From Nemania diffusa (lineage: Eukaryota; Ascomycota; Sordariomycetes; Xylariales; Xylariaceae), in the NCBI GenBank assembly GCA_038501195.1, contig JBBPUQ010000004.1, positions 372,001 to 436,000 of the forward strand: a stretch of DNA of 64,000 nt. Reading direction: 5' to 3'. Under the pieces are notes generated by a model that saw only the letters and a list, made by a program, of their open reading frames with translations, searched no databases and had not been told where the DNA came from. Below are positions 1,784 through 60,887 of the stretch, piece after piece; position 1 is the first letter of the stretch; the number at the start of each line of letters is the position of its first letter. Made by a program: the position numbers and the translations under genes.

Positions 1784-4700
1784 GGGTTTGTTGGGGAACT
1801 TTGGAGGGGAAAGGACTTGAAGAGGAGGAACGTGTGTGCGTGCGGGAGAATAGATAGGTATTAGATTCTTTGGGCTTTTAGGCTGGGTTGTTCTGTCTGT
1901 CTGCTTGCATGGTTTTGGTGTTTGCGTCGAGTTGCTTGTCTGGAAGCTCTCTCACGCTCACTACGTGCGTACGTACAAACTGCCTGCTAACTAGTTGTCC
2001 TTAAGGCAAAGAGAAGTATGTAGAGAATGTGAAAAAAACAAAAACAAGACAATCAATATATTGTCCGAGATATACTACCACGGCGAGATGACTTCTGCTA
2101 GGGCCTTGATATTTCTGTATACCTTGTACGTGCTTTCCGATACACATTTCCTTACTGCTACCTACTCAAACAAATGTTTTAATGTGAAGGAAACTGCATA
2201 ACTACGGTTCTCTATCCTTCAGCTGGACCTGCGTGATCGATGCGTGAACCTCAGTAATATTAACTACGGCCAAGGCGGCTATCACTTGCTGTTTGTACTT
2301 ACTGCCTAGTGAATCCTAACTAAATAACAGTGGAACTTTGTCTAAGGCTTAACGGCTGACTGATTTTACTTTGATTGGGGACTACCTACATATCCTCTAC
2401 CAGGCTGACGGCTGCGTGCACACGATGGCTCTCCAAACTTATGTTATTAAACCAAAACACATGAAACACACAACATATGACTCGTCACGTATGCAGCTTG
2501 GAGTATTGGAGGCACGGAGAATATTCTTTCATTCGTTCTATTTAACTGAATCATACTGGTCTCCAAGTGTGCACGCAGGGCTATCGCACTTGGGAAACAC
2601 AAATAATACGATGTTTACTACTCGCAAAAAGACATTGTAGAAAGATAAGCAAATTCTAGAATGTACCTGTAATCTACTAGTCAGCCTTGATGTTTCAATG
2701 AAAAAACTGCAGGAAAAATTTAGAAACGAGTGTTGATCAGACATCCAAGGAAGGATTAACCCTCATCTGCTTCAAAATAGGCTCGCATGAAGCTCGAGTG
2801 GAAACTGCGAATAGTTGTGGAAAATTCATCATATAAACGGAAAGGTGCAAATGAAAACAAATGTTTCAGCTTACCTACTAACAATACATGGGTCGATAGA
2901 GTTCAGAGACCGGCCCAGGTGTTTGAAGATGATCGAGTTGCTAGGATTAGCGGGCAAATCTGTAATCATGGAAAACAAGTCTAATTGATGATAGCAATAT
3001 TAGCAGCTAGATCAAGGTGGATAAGGATATGCGGCTCTCGCGTGCACCTCTCCGGCCCGTGTGCAGACGCGCCCAAGGCGTCAATCATGACACACGAGAT
3101 CAGACAAAGTATACTGGCAAGTAACAGGCTTAGAGCCCGAGCAGTCGAAATTTCTTCAAGGGCGATTCGGTTGGGAAAAGAAGACAATTTGTTTGGATGT
3201 CATCCTGAAAATTGGAGATCGTGGGATATGGCAAGAGAGTTTGGAGGACAAGCTTACCATGCATTTCAAATCACTGCGCGGAAAAGCGCGGACGCGTCGT
3301 ACCAAGCACAAATACACAATGGCGAGACGAACACCGTCGCCCAACTCGCGAGGAGAAAAGGCCCTGGAAAGTTGAATTGTGGTTGAAGGAAGGAGGTGAG
3401 TTGATGGAAAGGGAAACTTGTTGGGTGAGTACGAAATTTATAGGCAAGGAAAAGTTGAGCAGAGCCTTGCGAGAAGAAAAATTTCAGTGGAGATTCGCGG
3501 ATGAGTTTGTTATCGGATAAACTATGGAGTGGGGTAGAGCTGTCAAGGTGAGGCCTAACAGTTGGTCCGCGCGAGTGCCAGCTGGCATTAAATAAGCTTT
3601 GTGAGATTAGGTAATTGAACTTCTTAGTAGGTAATCTCAAACAATGCTTACCTATCTACATTTAGATGCCGGCATTTATATATATATATATGTATGAAGG
3701 GTTTGGTCTTTATCTTCCGCCCACCGGCTTATATTTATGGTATACCTAGTCATACAAGACCTGTCATTGTCTTACACGCATGGCCTGGCTATGCTCAGTG
3801 GTAGAATCGCAGAAACCCTTTTCTACTGGTACATATTCTGTTTTGTACTACTATCTGAGTAGGTGGCTGGGTGGGTGTGTGGACCCCGCAAGTCTATTAT
3901 TGGCGTCAGGAACTTTATTTTGTCCGATATCCGAGAAATCTCCTGCTCCTGATTGGATAATCGGTGCTGATGCACGTCAGAGTACCCCACTTCAAACTCT
4001 CTAGCGTCCTGACCTTCACCCTGTCCCTCCCGTCACTCCTCGACGGGGGTATGCGACCAGCCCACTCACTTGGTCCTGACCGCATGTCGGCTTTTCCCTT
4101 CTTTCTCTCGCCCTTTCCGCTTCTCATAGCTTGGAGGAACGCGCCAATATTTCCGTTAGTCATCTACCGGGAACTTAATAGCTATATATGTAGGCACCAA
4201 CTATATCTCGCTACCCATAGCCTATGGGAGCGCACAGTATCTGTACAGTACTTAGTGCTAGGTGGGTTAGGTACCTAGGTAGTGCAAATCAATCGATCCC
4301 ACGCTTTACAGCTCACAAACACGCTTTTTATATAACTAAGATTGCTGCCATAACGTACCTATTGCATACCTGTTACCTACATGAGCAGTCTACTGTAGCC
4401 CATTGTAGTACAGCATGCCTGAGGTATGTATGTCGGTATCTGCCTACCTAAGGTACTTAGATAGCGTACAGTACATATCTTGATATCAATCGTTCTACTA
4501 TACTGATCAACATATGATTCGACAGCAACACTCAGCTGCAAAAAAAAGAAATCATTGGCAACTTCTCTTTAGGTTTGCGTGGTAATGGCGTGTTTGGAAC
4601 TTAAAATTGAGGTGGCGTATATGTGGTCTACCTACATATCTACCTTCAACGACCTACAACACCACTAACATAGAATATCGTCCTATTAGGATGTACCTAA

Positions 4701-44464: not shown

Positions 44465-47400
44465 ATGATGGCGTCGTCCAATAATGCCCAACCACAAGGT
44501 TTCGCCCAAAGCAATCCAACGCGATCAAGACCATCCGTCCAGCTCCACTGCGTCCACGATTCGAGCGAAGACAAAAACAGACCTAGAAGCAAGACGGAGT
44601 TGATTGACATCTTTGCCATACATGGCCTAGACACAAAGTCGCCGGAAACATGGACCTGGAAGGACAACCCTCAGGATCCCCAAGAGCGTGGAGTTAACTG
44701 GCTAGCCGACAAACACATGCTTCCAAGCAGGGTTGGTCCGTCCCGTATCTTCACGTGCGACTGGCCAGCGCAACTATTCGAATCGCGGGAATTTGCTGAG
44801 CACACTTTTGAAGAGCTTGCTAGACTTCTACTCGAAGGCATCCTACATCATCATGAAGCACAACGACCGATTCTCTTCATTGCTTCGTGTCTCGGGGGCA
44901 TCATCCTCATAAAGGCGCTCACCATGGCCAATGGTCAGTATTTTCCCATCAAATTAGATACTCGCGCCATCGTCTTTCTCTCTACGCCGTTTCGGGGCAC
45001 TGCGTTCCACGAAGTAGCTAAATGGGCGGAGCCCGGTCTAAGAGCCTGGGCAAAAAGCCAGGACTCCCGAGTTAGCGGGTGGCTCGAGTTTACGAAGAAG
45101 TCGGTTCCCGAAATTAGCGATCTCAGACGCAAATTCACTCAGATCCTCAGAGAACAACAATACGAAGTAACCACCTCTTATGAAATGGGTTACACCGATC
45201 TGCGTCGCAAGGTCCCTAGCTTGTCATTCCTTTTCCCCCCAGATAAGAGAATAGTGTGGCACAACCGTCCTAGTCCCTACTTCTATGGCTAATCAATGTT
45301 TTCAGCTCGTCGACAGCGAGTCGGGGACTCTAGAATGGGACGAATCCCCACTCCCACTTGATCGGATTCACGTGCAGATGAATAAGTTCTCCAACCCTGG
45401 ACACCCACACTACCAACAGATTGCTGGCCGCATTGAACGATACATTGAAAAACTTCGAAAGGGGACACCTCTCCAAAGAGCCGATGATTGCATACTTAAA
45501 CTTTATGCTAGAGAGAAACTCAAGATTGTACGGCTCTCTGGTGATCAATTGGACATGGACCAATGTTACATCAACCTAGCTATTGTAAAGCAGTGGGAAG
45601 ATGCCCCATCTCAGACTTCGCCATTCTCGCTCTCCAGCCGGCTAAGCATTGAGGCAACCCACGAAGATCTCTTAGTCGAGCTTTCGGCACTCTTCAACTC
45701 ACGCGGAAACTCACACACCCTCGCAAAGGAGCCGAGAAGGATACTAATTCGCGGTCGTGCCGGAGTCGGAAAGACTACGCTGTGTAAGAAGATCGTCCAT
45801 AACTTCATCTACGAAAAGATGTGGGGAAACCTATTTACCCGCGTATTGTGGGTGCCCTTGCGAGAACTGAAAGCAAAAAAACGATCTTGGGATAACCTTG
45901 GCAAAATGTTTCATCATATTTATTTCGCCAAGGAACCTGAAGGTGAAACATTTGCCAAGACATTATGGTGTTCAGTTGAGAAGACACACTACTGCTATTC
46001 ACTGTTTATCCTCGATGGCCTGGATGAAGTATCTGAGCTGTTGGATTCAGAACATCTGGCATCCAGTCTTCTGGTGAAACTTTTAAACTGTCCCAATGTC
46101 ATAATTACAACCCGACCCCATGCCCGGCTTCCCATTGCCTTTAAAAAGCCCTATCGAGAATTAGAGGTGATTGGATTCAACCCAGACCAAGTCCACAATT
46201 ATGTCCAAAAGGTTCAAAATCCAGAAAAAAATGCTGAGGAGATCGAGTCGTTTCTTGAAAATCACCGGCTTGTTAAAAGTCTTGTTCGGATCCCGATTCT
46301 GCTAGATGCTCTATGCCTCATATGGGACGAAAACTTTGAAAACAGTTCTACTGCAGAGACTATGACGGCTATTTTTGACGCTATTGTGAAACGCCTATGG
46401 AAGAAGAAGGACGTTATACGGCTTGGCAAGATTGCAGAAGGAGCTTCTCATGTTGCTCACGATTCAGAGATAGAGGAGAGAACGGAGGATGAAAGGAAAA
46501 TTCTTGAATGTTTGGCGTTTAATGGAATGTGCAACAACGTAGTGGAGTTTCAGTCAGAGCATCGGAACCACATACGCAAGCTGGTCAAACCTAATACGGG
46601 GGGCCGCGTGCTTGATGAGATACTCGGGGATCTCTCGTTTTTACGATCTTCAGACCCCTCAGCAAGCATACACCAGCGAAGTTATCACTTCTTGCACCTC
46701 ACCTTTCAGGAGTTCTTTGCGGCGAAATACTTCGCACGACAGTGGAAAGCCAGAAAGGGACTAGAATTTCAGGATTTCAGGACCAGGGAGCTGTTAAGGG
46801 TTAAGCCGGAGGCTTTCCTGGCGCAGGAAAAGTATACTGGACGCTACGATATTGTATGGCGCTTCGTTGCTGGTCTGCTTCAGCCTGGCGAAGTAAAAGA
46901 CGACAACGTGCAAGATGATGAAGTGCGGGACGACAGCGTCGGGGACTTCTTTGAGGCAATTGGGCGGAACCCTATCGATCTTGTAGGGCCTGTACACCAG
47001 CGGCTGATTATGCGTTGCTTGAGCGAGGCCAATACTTGGAAAGGAATGCTACGATCGGAACTAGAATCTAGGTTATCTCAATGGTTGCCCTTGCACTGCG
47101 ACCTAGAAATAGGCACCAAGGAGACATTGGGTGAGGCACTCATAGCATCCGAATCGGAGTTTCCGGACAGCGTCCTACTTAGTGTCTTGAAAAATAGTAC
47201 TGGCCGCCGGAAAAAATATATTATAGAGTCCCTCTATCACTCTAATAGACCCCTTTCTGAACCGGTTGTCGCAGCGCTCGTGGGAGTATTAAAAGAGGGA
47301 GACAATGGTGGTCAAGAATATTGCAGCAGCGTGTTCTTTGCCCTGGAAACGCAATCCGACTTATCAGAGGCGAATATTTCAGTACTCGTAAGGATATTGG

Positions 47401-49352
47401 AAGACCAAGACAGTTTTAGCCAATGCTCCTGGGCGATCAAGCTGTTGAGAAAGCAATCGAACTTATCACAGGCGACCATTGCAGCACTTGCAAGACTAAT
47501 CGCTACCGAGCAAAACGACAAACGTGCTCGAAGAAAAAGTAAACGTACTCGAAGAGACAATGAACGTGCTCGAAGAAGAAGAGAGCGTGCTCGAAGAAGA
47601 AGAGAGTGTGCTCGAAAACTCGCGGCCAGAAGACTAGCCAAACAACGGGAAGACGCGGCCAGAAGCCTAGTCGGACAACGAAAATACGCGGATGCGGCTA
47701 TTATAGCACTTGTCGACATAGAAAAAAAGAAACTGCAGGGACGATCCACCACGGCGGAAACCGATGCGGGCTCATCAGAGCCCGTCGTCATGGAACTGTT
47801 TGCGGGAAACCCCACCGAATCTTCCATCAATCTTATGGCGACTGTGGCCATACAAAACCAACAGAAGTTGTCTGGAGCAGGCATCGCAGCATGCGTGTGG
47901 CTAATTGAAAACGCTCACGCTATTCAGTATGACGTGCTCACACACATGCGGGGCAACATTCACGGCAACGAATTCAACGAATTAGCCGCAAATGTTTTTA
48001 CATCCCTCGTTAGGGTAATCGAAAACGAACGCGGACACTACTCCAAGACATGCATAGACAATGCAGTTGATATTCTAGGGGATGAATGGAGTATACCGGC
48101 GGATGCTGCTAAACCACTTTTTAAGCTAATAGAAAACAAACACCTGTGCAAAAGTACGGATACTCAATTAGCTGCGATCGGAGCCATAGGCAGTCATCAA
48201 GAAAGCTTGCCAGAAACAGTGGTTACAGCACTCCTTGAGCTAATTGAAGACGAACATGCCGCCCAAAACATTCATTTTGCAGTGATCGAGTCCCTAAACA
48301 GGAAAAAGAACTTACCCGAGACAGCTATTAAAGCACTCGTTAGGCTAATCGAAAACGAATCCGGCCATAAGTATATTCGAGATGCCGTAGCCAGTATTCT
48401 AGGAGAGCAAAGCAACATGCCAGAAACAGCTGTTACAGCACTCGTTAGGATATTCAAAAACGAACATAAAAGCCATGATACTCGATTTTGCGCGATCCAG
48501 GCCCTAGAGGGACAAAGAAAATTGCAAGACGACATAATTACCACACTCGTCAAGCTACACGAAGATGAAAGCGAGCACATATGGATTCGGAGGGCCGCAA
48601 TCGGAGTTATAGCACGTCAAACAGTAGCAATATCAGAGGAAGTCATTGCAGTACTCGTCAAGCTAATCAAAAATGACCGAGCGAATATAGATACAGATAC
48701 CAGGCTCAGTACTTTAAAAAAGCAAACAGCATTATCAGAGGAGGTCATTACATTACTCATCGAGCTAATTGAGAATGAACACGAGGACAAATTTATTCAA
48801 GGCAAAGCGGTTGCGATCCTCCTTAATCAGACAAAGTTATCCACAGCAGCTAGCGCGGCACTCTTGGGGGTAATCAAAAACACAATGAAATACGAATATC
48901 CGATTCGACTTCAAGCAGCCTTCGCCCTCGCAAAGCAAACAAGCCTACCAAAAGAGACCATTCATGCTCTCGTAAAACCTCATCAACTCGAAGATGACCG
49001 AAATGAGACCGCTAAAGTCATAAGATCGTTGTCAAACCTGTCGGATATAACCATTAGAGCTATGGAGTTAGCCATAGATTCCGGAAGCACAAGCGAGGGC
49101 CTTGATCTTCTGAAATTCTTGTATGGGAGCTTCCTTCATCGTGGCTTTAGAGAGCAATTTTCACTGTATATTGAGGACGGCAACTTAGTTATCTACCTAC
49201 CAAATGGTTTCCGCGTAAAGATCAAGGTCCCCCCCGGCCAAGTGTTAGCCGCAATCAATGAGGGCCGGCAACTTTTTGTACCACTTGTACCAGCGTATTC
49301 AAACCTATGGCCTAATTATGGAACGTCTCCTCAAATTCTTCCTAGTGTCTGA
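44465..49352 (+). CDS. NOD-like receptor: alpha/beta-hydrolase-like domain, NACHT, HEAT-like repeats
   Basis: Two exons, 44465-45253 and 45306-49352, are separated by a 52-bp intron (GTGTGG donor, GGCTAATC branch-like, TTTTCAG acceptor). They give 1611 residues. Residues 1-263 resemble the DUF676/SesB-type alpha/beta hydrolase of fungal NLRs (IDIFAIHGLDTKSPETWTW, FTCDWPAQLF), but the nucleophile elbow is ASCLGG with Cys142. The NACHT domain follows: P-loop GRAGVGKTTL at about 413, Walker B LFILDGLDEV at about 496, NVIITTRPHARL, and FLHLTFQEFFAAKYFARQ. From about residue 925 to 1500 there are degenerate HEAT-like repeats (LPETAVTALVRLIENE-type). They are interrupted by an Arg-rich 21-bp tandem repeat. 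Fungal NLRs mediate heterokaryon incompatibility and non-self recognition. Here the effector would be the N-terminal domain and the sensor the repeats, by family inference. Confidence 0.9.
47523..47627 (+). repeat. Five 21-bp tandem repeats inside the NLR gene
   Basis: Units at 47523, 47544, 47565, 47586 and 47607 share CGTGCTCGAAGAAGAAGAGA-like sequence. Units 3 and 4 are identical. In frame they encode RARRKSK, RTRRDNE, RARRRRE, RARRRRE and CARKLAA, a highly basic expansion within one HEAT-like repeat. Confidence 0.9.
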
Positions 49353-49945
49353 GAGTAAGGATCTGGAGTGCGGTGCTGTGAATCCTGCTTGTGGTGGTGT
49401 CCGCCCGTGCTGGTATGCGTTCCGATTGTCACCTACAAGGCAAGTGGCCTGTGGCGGCCTGAGATGGTTCTTGGTAATGCTGTTGGGAGCTAGGTTGTGT
49501 GGGCAGACACAGACATACGCCAACTGAGCTTGCGGCGGCTGCGTACAACGTAGTACGGTATTACTCGTTCGTTTAGGGCTACGTGATGGCATTAGCTTTG
49601 GGTCTATGTTTTCAGGTTTGTCATTGCATTGCTTCAACGAGGTAGGAGACTTTCTTCTGAAAGAAACGAGTCTATTTGCAGCTGAGGAAAGGCTGACGTG
49701 TTTATCGCTATTGCGTGAAGGGTTGTGGTTATTATTGTTTTTTCCGCTCTTTTGACAATGATACTCGGGTTCAGCGGCTGGCTGTTATCTAAAAGTATAA
49801 ACCGTCTTCACTTTCTATTATCTCCTAACACAATTAATTGATAATTAATTATCTACTGAAACGAAGTGGAAGGCAGATGGCAAGAAGTAAGGAGATAACC
49901 AAATTATAAAAGACAAGGCAGTTTGTAAAAAAGAAAAAAAGAAAA
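49353..49945. other. Intergenic region downstream of the NLR
   Basis: No supported gene. AT-rich with A-tracts near 49925-49945 that border the inverted-repeat element. Confidence 0.4.
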
Positions 49946-50533
49946 CGTACAACACCGGGGATTCGCTGGTCGTCACCGACCCAACTACTGATCCGGCGGT
50001 ATGTAGCTTAGCTATGGGGGAGCGGACGGGACCCCGCGTTCTCTACATCCTATGGTCGTACGTGACAGCTATCTGTCTAACTTGGATTTATAAAGTTTCT
50101 ATAGAATCCGCTTGGGTGACTAACTAAGAGTCGCCTGTCAAGTCGGTGACTACAAAAGAGAAAAGACTAAATCAATACAAGTGAAAGAAAACGAGTCAAC
50201 TTATTCAGGGTGTCTTGAGCTTCCGTATATATGGGATAAGTATGGTAGAACTTAGACCCGGTCGTGCGCTACAATCTATTTTGTAGATATTATCAGCCCC
50301 CTTTATTTCCCTGTTCAGCTTATTTCTTAATCAGGGAACTAGCACTTTTCATATGTATTCTCCAACTAAACATAACTCACTAGCTATATAAGTGTTCATG
50401 AAGCTAGGTTCTATCACGTACGACCACAGCCGCTGGAAAACTCGGGATCCCGTCCGCTCTCCCATAGATAAGCCGGTGAGCGCCAAATTAGTAGTTGGGT
50501 CGGTGACGACCAGCGAATCCTTGGTGTTGTACG
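49946..50533. mobile_element. Non-autonomous DNA-transposon-like element (MITE) with about 120-bp terminal inverted repeats
   Basis: The left arm 49946-50065 begins CGTACAACACCGGGGATTCG and ends GTCGTACGTGA. The reverse complement of the right arm 50414-50533 begins CGTACAACACCAAGGATTCG and ends the same way. The arms share long identical blocks such as CGCTGGTCGTCACCGACCCA and AGAGCGGACGGGA-type cores. Several differences are C/T or G/A transitions. The internal roughly 350 bp encodes no transposase. A clear target-site duplication is not visible; A-rich sequence flanks both ends. This fits a miniature inverted-repeat element or the remnant of a larger transposon. Confidence 0.75.
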
Positions 50534-51110
50534 TTATTTTTACCCTTTCTTTTATTTTTATTTGCGTTTTTATTTTCGTGATGTTGATTAAGTTTCCGAT
50601 ATCACAGGTTGAGAGTTGTGAGTGGTGTTACAAATTACCTAGGTAGGGGCGGCATTGGGTGGAGACATCGGCGTCAGTATTTCAGTGGTATACCGGGTGA
50701 TCGGGGTCGGTGGTGGGGTAGTGGGGTAGTGGGGTTCGTGGCAATTTATCAGAAAATGCAGAAAGAGAAGGTGCCCCTCCATATACCCCCCTCCGATTGT
50801 CGCATGTGTCCCTATCTTTATCTAACCCGGACAATTTATTAAAAAAGAGTCATCGCCATTCCTTTCGCATAACTAAGGGCAACGCCATCAGCAGCATCAC
50901 CACCCCCATTCCCGCTCCCGCTGTCACCACCACCGAATACCCTTCAGCGTGACTCACCAGGTGTCTATAAAGGGTTACCCTCCGGCACACCGAAGCCTCC
51001 TCAGAATCTACTGTGTCTCGTCTCCAATTCAGACTCCAATTGACTCCAAACGACTAGAATACAAATATAATTACAATCGCAGCCGCAGTCGCAATCGGAC
51101 GATACACAAC
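50534..51110 (+). promoter_or_regulatory. Upstream region of tryptophan synthase
   Basis: Holds a CPC1/Gcn4-type site (see separate entry), a second TGACTC half-site at 51041, and a CT/CA-rich leader before the ATG. No ORF of interest. Confidence 0.5.
50950..50956 (+). promoter_or_regulatory. TGACTCA general amino-acid control element (CPC1/Gcn4 site)
   Basis: A perfect palindromic TGACTCA lies about 155 bp upstream of the tryptophan synthase ATG. This is the consensus bound by Gcn4/CPC1/CpcA, which derepresses amino-acid biosynthesis genes on starvation. The site is seen; the regulation is inferred from the family. Confidence 0.6.
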
Positions 51111-53440
51111 ATGGAGCCTCTAAGACAGACCTTTAAGCGGTGCCAGGCTGAGAATCGGGTACGATAGACCAACAGACAGACAGTACAACACCTACAAGAG
51201 CCAGTAGTCGCTAACGAGAAGTGTACGTGTAGGCTGCATTGGTGACCTATGTCACAGCCGGCTTCCCCAAGCCTGAGCTCATGCCCAGCATCTTGCTGGC
51301 TATGCAGAAGGGTGGTGCTGGTACGTGATGAATCCCAGGCCCACCAATTGACACTACCTGACGCAAGGAAACAGATGTCATTGAGTTGGGCGTCCCGTTC
51401 ACAGATCCTATTGCCGATGGCCCTACCATTCAGACCTCCAACACGGTCGCCCTCGCCAACGGCGTCACCATCAAGTCCACCCTACAGATGGTCAAGGACT
51501 CGCGCGCTCAGGGCCTGATCGTTCCCGTGCTGCTGATGGGCTACTACAACCCCCTTCTTAGTTACGGCGAAGAAGGTCTGTTAACTGATTGCAAGGCTGC
51601 CGGGATCAATGGCTTCATCGTCTGCGACTTGCCTCCCGAAGAGGCCGTCTCCTTCCGCAAGTTCTGTAGTCGTGGTGGCCTATCCTATGTTCCTCTAATC
51701 GCCCCGGCTACCTCCGATGCCCGCATGAAGCTTCTGTGTGCCCTAGCCGACTCTTTCATCTACGTCGTTTCCCGCCAGGGTGTTACTGGTGCTCTGGGTA
51801 CCCTGAATGCCAACCTCCCCAGCCTACTCGAGCGCGTCAAGAAGTATAGTGGCGACAAGCCCGCTGCTGTCGGCTTCGGCGTCTCTACGCGCGACCACTT
51901 CCAGTCTGTGGCTGCTATCGCCGATGGTGTTGTCATCGGTTCCCAGATTGTCACGATTCTCCAGAACGCCGAGGCCGGCAAGCACGCCCAGGCTGTGCAG
52001 GAATACTGTGCTTATGTTACGGGACGGACGGGCGAGCCCGAGGTCACGCGAGAGGTGGGGGTCATTGAGGCTGCTGGCTTGGCGAAAGAGCCTAATGGCG
52101 AGTCTGTCACGGTGAACGGCACAGTTACCGAGGAGGAGGATGCCGCGCTGGTCGCACAACTCGCTGCTCTCCATGGTATAATTCCTGAGCGGTTTGGTGA
52201 ATTTGGTGGTCAATACGTTCCGGAGTCCCTCATGGACTGTCTATCACAACTGGAAGAAGGCTTCAATGCCATAAAAGATGATCCCAAGTTCTGGGAAGAA
52301 TACAGATCCTACTATCCTTGGATGGGACGGCCTGGCCACCTACAGTATGCTGAACGGTTGACGGAATACGCAGGAGGTGCCAAGATCTGGTTGAAGAGAG
52401 AAGATTTGAACCATACTGGTTCTCATAAGATCAACAATGCTCTAGGCCAGTTGCTTCTCGCACGGAGACTGGGTAAAACCAAGATCATTGCCGAGACGGG
52501 TGCGGGGCAGCACGGTGTCGCTACGGCCACTGTCTGTGCCAAGTTCGGCATGGAGTGCACCGTCTTCATGGGTGCTGTGAGTTGTCTTGTTTCCATTATT
52601 CCCCGCCCCGAAAGCCTCGAACTAACAATTCTATAGGAAGATGTGCGACGACAAGCACTCAACGTGTTCCGTATGCGACTCCTCGGCGCTAAGGTAATTG
52701 CTGTGGAGTGTGGTAGCAAAACCCTCCGAGATGCCGTCAACGAGGCGCTAAGAGCCTGGGTTGTGCGTCTCGAAGACACGCATTATATTATCGGCTCAGC
52801 CATCGGCCCTCACCCATTCCCGACCATTGTCAGAACTTTCCAGTCCGTCATCGGCAACGAGACGAAAGCGCAGATGCTCGAGAAGCGGGGGAAACTCCCT
52901 GACGCCGTTGTCGCTTGCGTTGGAGGCGGTAGTAACGCGGTGGGTATGTTCTACCCGTTCGCGAATGATCCTAGTGTGAAACTGCTCGGCGTCGAGGCCG
53001 GCGGTGACGGCGTGCACACGGACCGGCACTCGGCGACCCTGACGGCGGGTTCTAAGGGCGTCTTGCACGGTGTCCGGACCTATGTCCTTCAGAACGAGCA
53101 CGGCCAGATCAACGACACACACTCGGTATCCGCAGGTCTCGATTACCCCGGCGTGGGACCCGAACTATCATCCTGGAAGGACAACGAGCGGGCTAAATTC
53201 GTAGCAGCCACAGACGCCGAGGCATTCCTCGGCTTCAAGCTGATGAGTCAGCTGGAGGGTATCATCCCGGCGCTCGAGTCGGCGCACGGCATCTATGGCG
53301 CCCTCGAGCTGGCCAAGACGATGAAGAAGGACGAGGACCTCGTGATTTGTCTCAGCGGTCGTGGCGACAAGGACGTACAGAGCGTGGCGGATGAGCTGCC
53401 CAAGCTGGGTCCCGAGATCGGATGGGATCTCCGGTTTTAA
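51111..53440 (+). CDS. trp-3: Tryptophan synthase, fused alpha-beta
   Basis: Four exons, 51111-51158, 51233-51320, 51375-52576 and 52637-53440, give 713 residues, the usual length of the fungal bifunctional enzyme. The alpha half has [17 protein letters not shown], with catalytic Glu49 and Asp60 at the same numbers as in bacterial TrpA. The beta half starts near residue 300 ([14 protein letters not shown]). It carries the PLP lysine in [11 protein letters not shown] (Lys397), the [10 protein letters not shown] phosphate-binding loop and the SGRGDKD C-terminal motif. Alpha cleaves indole-3-glycerol phosphate; beta condenses the channelled indole with serine to tryptophan in the cytosol. The linker (about 250-290) is acidic and variable, as usual. 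A TGACTCA element upstream suggests cross-pathway control. It converges on the bL28m gene. Confidence 0.97.
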
Positions 53441-60509: not shown

Positions 60510-60635
60510 TCCTCGGTGGCGCAATTGGCTAGCGCGTCGTAAGTTACATTGAAATAAATGAACGAAATAATTAGGTCTAACATGAATCAGTGACTGTTAA
60601 TCAGGAGGTTGAAAGTTCGAGCCTTTCCCGGGGAG
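60510..60635 (+). tRNA. tRNA-Asn (GUU) with a spliceosomal-type intron in the anticodon stem
   Basis: Exons 60510-60538 and 60591-60635 form a complete 74-nt cloverleaf. The acceptor stem is TCCTCGG with CCGGGGA, and the D stem is GCGC/GCGC. The anticodon stem is TCTGA with TCAGG, around loop CTGTTAA (anticodon GTT). The T stem is GAAAG/CTTTC around TTCGAGC, and the discriminator is G. A-box and B-box promoter sequences are present, and a T8 terminator lies at 60640-60647. The 52-bp intron 60539-60590 falls after position 28, between TC and TGA of the stem. It begins GTAAGT, has GGTCTAAC ten nt before the 3' end, and ends CAG. With the intron kept, no anticodon stem forms. No canonical position-37/38 intron is present. 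Confidence 0.9.
60539..60590 (+). other. 52-bp GT-AG intron of the first tRNA-Asn gene
   Basis: GTAAGT at 60539-60544, branch CTAAC at 60577-60581, CAG at 60588-60590. These match the protein-gene introns of this window. Confidence 0.85.
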
Positions 60636-60639
60636 CTTG

Positions 60640-60647
60640 TTTTTTTT
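60640..60647 (+). terminator. Pol III terminator T8, tRNA-Asn copy 1
   Basis: Eight consecutive T start five nt after the discriminator base. Confidence 0.8.
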
Positions 60648-60743
60648 ATAATCCTAGTATTTTTAGTATCTACCGATTGTCACCGATCGAGGGTTTCTTA
60701 TTTGACATAAGCATGTGGGCTAATATCCAACAGCCACTAATTA

Positions 60744-60877
60744 TCCTCGGTGGCGCAATTGGCTAGCGCGTCGTAAGTTGTTCTCAAACAATTATATAAT
60801 CTACTTACCCAGTATCTAACAATCAATTCTAGTGACTGTTAATCAGGAGGTTGAAAGTTCGAGCCTTTCCCGGGGAG
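60744..60877 (+). tRNA. Second tRNA-Asn (GUU) with an unrelated spliceosomal-type intron at the same site
   Basis: Exons 60744-60772 and 60833-60877 are identical to those of the first copy and fold into the same 74-nt tRNA. A T8 Pol III terminator lies at 60880-60887. The intron 60773-60832 is 60 bp. It begins GTAAGT, has TATCTAAC twelve nt before the end, and ends TAG. Apart from GTAAGTT and TCTAAC it shares no clear similarity with the first copy's intron. The short upstream flank (CCACTAATTATCCTCGG) resembles that of copy 1, so the pair probably arose by local duplication about 234 bp apart. Confidence 0.9.
60773..60832 (+). other. 60-bp GT-AG intron of the second tRNA-Asn gene
   Basis: GTAAGT at 60773-60778, branch CTAAC at 60816-60820, TAG at 60830-60832. 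Confidence 0.85.
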
Positions 60878-60879
60878 TG

Positions 60880-60887
60880 TTTTTTTT
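60880..60887 (+). terminator. Pol III terminator T8, tRNA-Asn copy 2
   Basis: Eight consecutive T start three nt after the discriminator base. Confidence 0.8.

Follow-up and report, generated by a model that had tools for sequence, protein, structure and literature searches.

The window analysed here is a stretch of 64 kb (C4:372001-436000) from a genome of 55.6 Mb in 16 contigs, and its host appears to be an ascomycete of the Xylariaceae kind. An exon of the tryptophan synthase gene in the window is 95% identical to a cluster from Xylaria flabelliformis and 94% identical to Nemania bipapillata. The features of the window, including two tRNA-Asn(GUU) genes that are each divided by an intron of spliceosomal type, are as follows:

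2733-2837, reverse strand: SNORD14-like snoRNA (Rfam, 65.9 bits; gathering score 64)
45255-49352, forward strand: NACHT NLR-like protein, an open frame of 1365 aa, nearest to Xylaria longipes at 48% identity
49944-50063, reverse strand: 5S rRNA, uninterrupted (Rfam)
50416-50535, forward strand: 5S rRNA, uninterrupted and divergent from the 49944-50063 copy (Rfam)
51111-53437, forward strand: tryptophan synthase gene containing three introns, which served among the mRNA-intron controls
60510-60538, forward strand: tRNA-Asn(GUU) copy 1, exon 1, standard positions 1-28 with the A box (exact match to uninterrupted tRNA-Asn genes)
60539-60590, forward strand: copy 1, spliceosomal-type intron of 52 nt, GTAAGT...CAG (signals scored)
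60577-60581, forward strand: copy 1, branch-site motif CTAAC, putative branch A at 60580 (motif by sequence)
60591-60635, forward strand: copy 1, exon 2, positions 29-73 with anticodon GTT and the B box (match to uninterrupted genes)
60640-60647, forward strand: copy 1, Pol III terminator T8 (by sequence)
60744-60772, forward strand: tRNA-Asn(GUU) copy 2, exon 1 (exact match to uninterrupted tRNA-Asn genes)
60773-60832, forward strand: copy 2, spliceosomal-type intron of 60 nt, GTAAGT...TAG (signals scored)
60816-60820, forward strand: copy 2, branch-site motif CTAAC, putative branch A at 60819 (motif by sequence)
60833-60877, forward strand: copy 2, exon 2 (match to uninterrupted genes)
60880-60887, forward strand: copy 2, Pol III terminator T8 (by sequence)

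The preliminary description of this locus reported two tRNA-Asn(GUU) genes interrupted at a non-canonical site, between standard positions 28 and 29 in the anticodon stem, and this is confirmed: in both copies the joined exons give a 74-nt sequence identical to two uninterrupted copies present in the genome, which makes the exon boundaries secure. Both inserts share the core signal GTAAGT...TCTAAC...AG. The CTAAC motif had been placed 10-12 nt from the 3' end, and while it is present in both introns, its spacing is in fact 9 and 12 nt. The expectation that tRNA finders would miss or mis-score such genes is borne out for ARAGORN, which called zero tRNAs in the 64-kb window under bacterial settings and, with introns allowed, labelled the two copies Pyl(cta) and Val(aac) with the wrong introns, so that mis-annotation of genes of this type is real. 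An Rfam scan of the window yielded three matches at the gathering score, none of which is a tRNA.

When the 74-nt Asn sequence was compared with the genome (7/7 candidates scored), ten matches were obtained, representing seven genes. Uninterrupted genes are located at C1:5465804 and C1:5469041, both 100% identical over 74/74 nt to the joined exons of the window copies, and ARAGORN calls these intact genes tRNA-Asn. Three genes (the window pair and C1:5428209) are split at 28/29 and have identical exons; their inserts, of 52, 60 and 54 nt, all follow the form GTAAGT...TCTAAC...[CT]AG, and their splice position admits a single placement. Of the other two, C10:1634895 carries a canonical 10-nt intron at 37/38, and C6:2587882 is a degenerate copy with changes visible in the D stem and B box.

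Although both genes first described are real, two is an understatement of the family, since spliceosomal-type introns are present in at least 15 tRNA genes of the genome, in four isotypes and at three sites: Asn (28/29, n=3), Ile(AAU) (28/29, n=2), Lys(CUU) (T stem, 52/53, n=9) and Arg(CCU) (D loop, approximately 19/20, n=1), with tRNA positions numbered by hand. The canonical position 37/38 is not occupied by any of the 15 inserts, and misread canonical introns are thus ruled out. Given that position is shared within families and that the identity between the two Ile introns is 0.911, 15 inserts do not amount to 15 independent gains.

The Lys family emerged from an Rfam tRNA search of the genome (best 63 of 1964 candidates scored), which pointed to two tRNA-Lys(CUU) genes with long inserts. 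A dedicated Lys(CUU) DNA search (36/36 candidates scored) identified eleven genes, two uninterrupted and nine split in the T stem by inserts of 54-64 nt reading GTRAG[TC]...CTAA[CT]...AG. Position 68 is U in all nine interrupted genes, whereas it is C in both uninterrupted genes, which argues against the interrupted exons being simple or recent copies of the intact ones. Of the five Ile(AAU) genes found, two are interrupted at 28/29 (C3:5939312 and C5:1535351; GTATGT..TACTAAT..CAG), and both also carry the canonical 37/38 intron further downstream; the remaining three were judged canonical-only, C5:1574683 on match length alone. At one locus (L095, C5:1535328-1536426) two tRNA-Ile(AAU) genes lie less than 1 kb apart; both hold the 37/38 intron but only one of them carries the spliceosomal-type intron, providing a natural comparison. 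The splice placement in Lys and Ile is ambiguous, because the first base or bases of the intron and of exon 2 agree, and among placements giving equal joined exons the GT-AG one was chosen. The single Arg(CCU) gene (C6:2151991) has a D-loop insert of the form GTAAGT..TTGCTAAC..TATAG, whose boundaries are provisional because no uninterrupted copy of this gene was seen.

The probes used for Phe, Trp, Tyr, His, iMet and Gly gave one Phe-like gene (C7:1624585) and none for Trp, Tyr, His, iMet or Gly(GCC). In the other tRNA families searched (best 40 of 93 candidates scored in one of these searches), only canonical-type splits were recognised among genes read base by base in part. A repeat family with tRNA-like ends (TGGCCAAG...GGGGGTTCGATTCCCCCGTTGGCCA, followed by a T-run) was also observed at L076, L124, L128 and perhaps L072; it possesses a long middle in which splice signals were not seen, and it is partly tandem at C9:1252400-1254300.

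The inserts are uniform in their signals. All 15 are 52-64 nt in length, begin with GTRAGY (13) or GTATGT (2), end in AG, and contain NCTAA[CT], whose branch A lies 9-13 nt from the intron end. Their counterparts in mRNA genes were represented by 17 introns defined by spliced alignment in beta-tubulin, a second tubulin, actin and tryptophan synthase. These range from 54 to 163 nt, with 10/17 at or below 66 nt, so that the shorter ones overlap the tRNA inserts in length, and the branch A lies 11-18 nt from the end in 14/17; two lack CTRAY, and one has its branch A at 42 nt, where the boundary may be wrong. A combined pattern, GTRNG..CTRAY (branch A 8-18 nt before the end)..AG, which was written after the introns had been seen, is found in all 15 tRNA inserts, both U6 introns described below and 13 of the 17 mRNA introns, as against 2 of 400,000 random sequences matched in length and base composition and none of 63,936 positions tried in the window. 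By comparison, among other ARAGORN intron calls on tRNA loci, GT..CTRAY..AG within 4 nt of the boundaries occurs in 0 of 44 (an earlier count by the same rule gave 43). The 44 represent 48 calls at loci L021-L130 minus four calls on interrupted genes (two at L023, one at L088 and one at L118), with mitochondrial L028, L029 and L039 outside the count, and include two repeats in L128 that are possibly not tRNAs. Intron-like strings were also counted ab initio across the window, but the outcome, 73 where shuffled sequence averaged 52.6, carried too much noise to be of use. In both length and signals, the inserts resemble the genome's own mRNA introns. Group I or group II self-splicing is presumably an unlikely explanation for inserts of 52-64 nt with GT..CTAAY..AG.

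The same genome contains introns in another class of Pol III gene. U6 sequences were identified at three loci (L108, C4:4312655; L109, C3:5853313; L110, C6:1445914) in a search in which the best 47 of 2665 candidates were scored, and both full-length U6 genes found contain a 53-nt intron of the form GTAAG..AACTAAC..AG, which encloses a B-box-like string (GTTCGAATTC and GTTCGAGTCC). The fungus therefore appears already to splice Pol III transcripts. The third U6 copy is truncated at its 5' end and lacks the intron exactly at the exon junction; it may represent something like a spliced retrocopy, with an old intronless copy as the alternative.

Several observations bear on whether the interrupted genes are functional. 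The exons of the three Asn, nine Lys and two Ile interrupted genes are all intact, and no family shows a difference among its members, exon 1 of the Lys genes having been located by exact match. Once splice signals are removed, the interiors of the Lys introns show an identity of 0.500 (shuffled 0.476 +- 0.011) and those of the Asn introns 0.468 (shuffled 0.475 +- 0.030), compared with 0.596 (shuffled 0.497 +- 0.008) for whole Lys introns and 0.523 (shuffled 0.499 +- 0.009) for the Lys 5' flanks. The Lys and Asn introns are thus almost fully diverged while the adjoining exons and the splice signals are kept, a pattern that would be expected if the exons are used and the introns are removed; the Ile introns, given their close identity, are of little use in this comparison. 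With the intron taken out, the interrupted genes show a cloverleaf, A and B boxes (judged by eye) and a terminator, with T-runs located downstream. Minimum-energy folding, a poor test, recovered the full cloverleaf for Lys only, a partial one for Asn and Ile, and none for Arg, which was folded with one extra 5' base.

The 3' trailers of the tRNA-Lys(CUU) genes (L024, L025, L041, L067 and L111-L117) are themselves conserved (0.786 over 45 nt), with AATTCC[TC][GA]ATGCC and a stem-loop followed by the T-run. With the arms picked by hand, 7/7 stem positions pair in nine of ten trailers and 6/7 in the tenth (L041), this count covering 10 of the 11 trailers as L111, which differs in register, was omitted. 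The stem includes compensating changes (e.g. C-G to T-A), and the conserved trailer with its stem-loop suggests that the Lys loci are expressed as RNA. The trailer can also pair with the 3' acceptor strand GCAT[TC]GGG.

Considering these data together, we regard it as very probable that these are functional tRNA genes, transcribed by Pol III, which have acquired U2-type introns, and that their precursors are spliced by the major spliceosome. Removal by the mRNA spliceosome had been proposed in the preliminary description, and it gains support at the level of sequence from the presence of the signals in 15/15 inserts, their likeness to mRNA introns, the U6 intron and the lack of exon decay.

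A different question concerns where the inserts came from, and one potential answer is that they are recently spread mobile (introner-like) introns that landed in tRNA genes. Such an origin is compatible with spliceosomal removal, and it would fit the fact that several isotypes and sites have been struck, as well as the description, in the available part of PMC8469720, of proliferating introns in the related family Hypoxylaceae. However, nine of the 15 inserts were searched against the genome (9/9 candidates scored), and all ten matches fall either at the source loci or at one Ile sister; moreover, the Lys and Asn introns are old and diverged. We consequently consider a recent mobile origin unlikely.

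Less probable still, and in our view very doubtful, is that only the uninterrupted copies are active, the interrupted ones being pseudogenes or insertion alleles without function. Intact copies do exist, two each for Asn and Lys(CUU), so that the interrupted genes may not be necessary, and according to the available part of PMC4090602, insertions in the D or T arm of eukaryotic tRNA genes mostly occur in a single gene among many synonymous ones, such genes being presumed pseudogenes. In the preliminary description, an abundant set of intron-free Asn copies with no spliced reads from the pair, or exon decay in close relatives, was to identify the pair as pseudogenes; two intron-free copies are indeed present, yet the interrupted exons are undecayed. 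Identical exons beside Lys and Asn intron interiors that are near or at shuffled similarity argue against loss of function, and it is on this contrast that we reject the pseudogene reading. Furthermore, splice signals are kept in 15/15 inserts, T-runs are present, the truly decayed Asn copy at C6:2587882 looks different in its D stem and B box, and loss of function would have to extend to 9 of the 11 Lys(CUU) genes found.

The least credible of the three alternatives, to which we attach very little weight, is that the inserts are non-canonical tRNA introns cut by the tRNA splicing endonuclease via a bulge-helix-bulge (BHB) structure, as in archaea and a red alga, even though introns at non-canonical sites are on record for that pathway (PMC4090602, available in part). 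In its strict form (a central helix of 4 bp flanked by a 3-nt bulge at each splice site), the BHB is found in 0/15 inserts, although this is a weak test given that canonical controls with ARAGORN boundaries show it in only 6/34. Under relaxed pairing, seven of the nine Lys inserts (L067, L111 and L113-L117) have a tail able to pair over 4 bp with the end of exon 1, against 25% expected by chance and 15/34 in canonical introns; the count for the Asn, Ile and Arg inserts is 0/6. The Lys pairing leaves some room for a possible endonuclease-type structure in that family, and shared ancestry of the Lys intron tails, several of which have CAAC before the AG, may be enough to explain it. Additionally, the 5' site, branch site and AG conserved in 15/15 inserts are not known to be needed by the enzyme.

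If the major spliceosome does process these precursors, the pathway can be outlined as follows. Pol III would transcribe the whole gene from its internal A and B boxes to the T-run. By eye and against the consensus sequences, both boxes are spared by all three insertion sites, the Asn and Ile introns lying between the A and B boxes and the Arg intron after the A box, such that an mRNA-type intron resides within a gene bearing Pol III signals (boxes and T-runs, again by eye). The Lys intron ends in G, and this G together with the exon sequence GTTCGACCC restores GGTTCGACCC. The major spliceosome would then read GURAGY (or GUAUGU), the NCUAAY branch site and the AG in the precursor, and would join the exons. 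As each insert breaks a stem or loop needed by processing enzymes, splicing would presumably come first, preceding folding and maturation of the tRNA. For the two doubly interrupted Ile genes, the anticodon-stem intron would leave first, and the tRNA splicing endonuclease would subsequently take the 37/38 intron.

In existing descriptions, a single dedicated endonuclease carries out nuclear tRNA splicing, mostly at one site. The present data make it reasonably likely, with less assurance than for the splicing of the precursors itself, that the major spliceosome serves in this fungus as a regular tRNA-maturation enzyme, on which most Lys(CUU) genes (9/11 found), part of the Asn and Ile genes and one Arg(CCU) gene would depend, and which two pre-tRNA-Ile would need ahead of the endonuclease. 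If so, splicing capacity would directly limit decoding of AAG lysine codons, tying mRNA splicing to translation capacity, and the spliceosome would be able to act on highly structured RNAs that Pol III makes as short transcripts. It would also follow that tRNA genes can acquire spliceosomal introns, so that intron gain could be tested in RNAs whose fold is known, and that a present finder (ARAGORN) misses or mislabels such genes.

Among the matches listed in a search of the titles and abstract openings of open-licence literature, we found no earlier report of spliceosomal introns in nuclear tRNA genes. None appears in the available parts of PMC11782384, PMC6461891, PMC13149111, PMC3978253, PMC8096339, PMC8393795 and PMC2784804, and likewise none in those of PMC4090602, PMC8527467, PMC10484740, PMC8469720, PMC8450103 and PMC5832005. 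Viral contigs, an uninformative set, contained no match to two exact patterns that combine tRNA sequence with a 5' splice site. The tRNAscan-SE 2.0 paper, in its available portion, states that eukaryotic tRNA genes hold no more than one intron (PMC8450103).

The closest known system is the U6 snRNA gene of fission yeast, a Pol III gene with an mRNA-type intron that must be spliced (PMC10484740, in part); the intron type and polymerase are shared, but the host is an snRNA there and tRNAs of four isotypes here. U6 was the only precedent that the preliminary description could name, which proves too narrow, as short spliceosomal introns, one of 57 bp, have been described in the rDNA of lichen fungi (PMC8527467, in part). 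These share with the present introns a spliceosomal type, a structural RNA not made by Pol II and a fungal host, but reside in Pol I rRNA rather than tRNA. Similarly, fungal U3 snoRNA genes possess ordinary spliceosomal introns, almost only in the 5' stem-loop (PMC5832005, in part), and so also involve a small structured RNA, in that case a snoRNA rather than a tRNA. Canonical nuclear tRNA introns (37/38, removed by the endonuclease) occupy the same class of gene but differ in position, length and signals, and two Ile genes here combine both types. Finally, tRNA introns in the D arm, anticodon stem and T arm are reported from nucleomorphs, Cyanidioschyzon and archaea in the available part of PMC4090602, where the splicing endonuclease is held responsible in archaea and the red alga, and the mechanism for the 3-24 nt introns of the Guillardia nucleomorph is said to be unknown. 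Whereas those introns are short or BHB-dependent, the ones described here are 52-64 nt, carry GT..CTAAY..AG and are without a strict BHB. What would be new in this genome is therefore not the intron, which by its signals appears to be of the ordinary U2 type, but the class of gene that hosts it.
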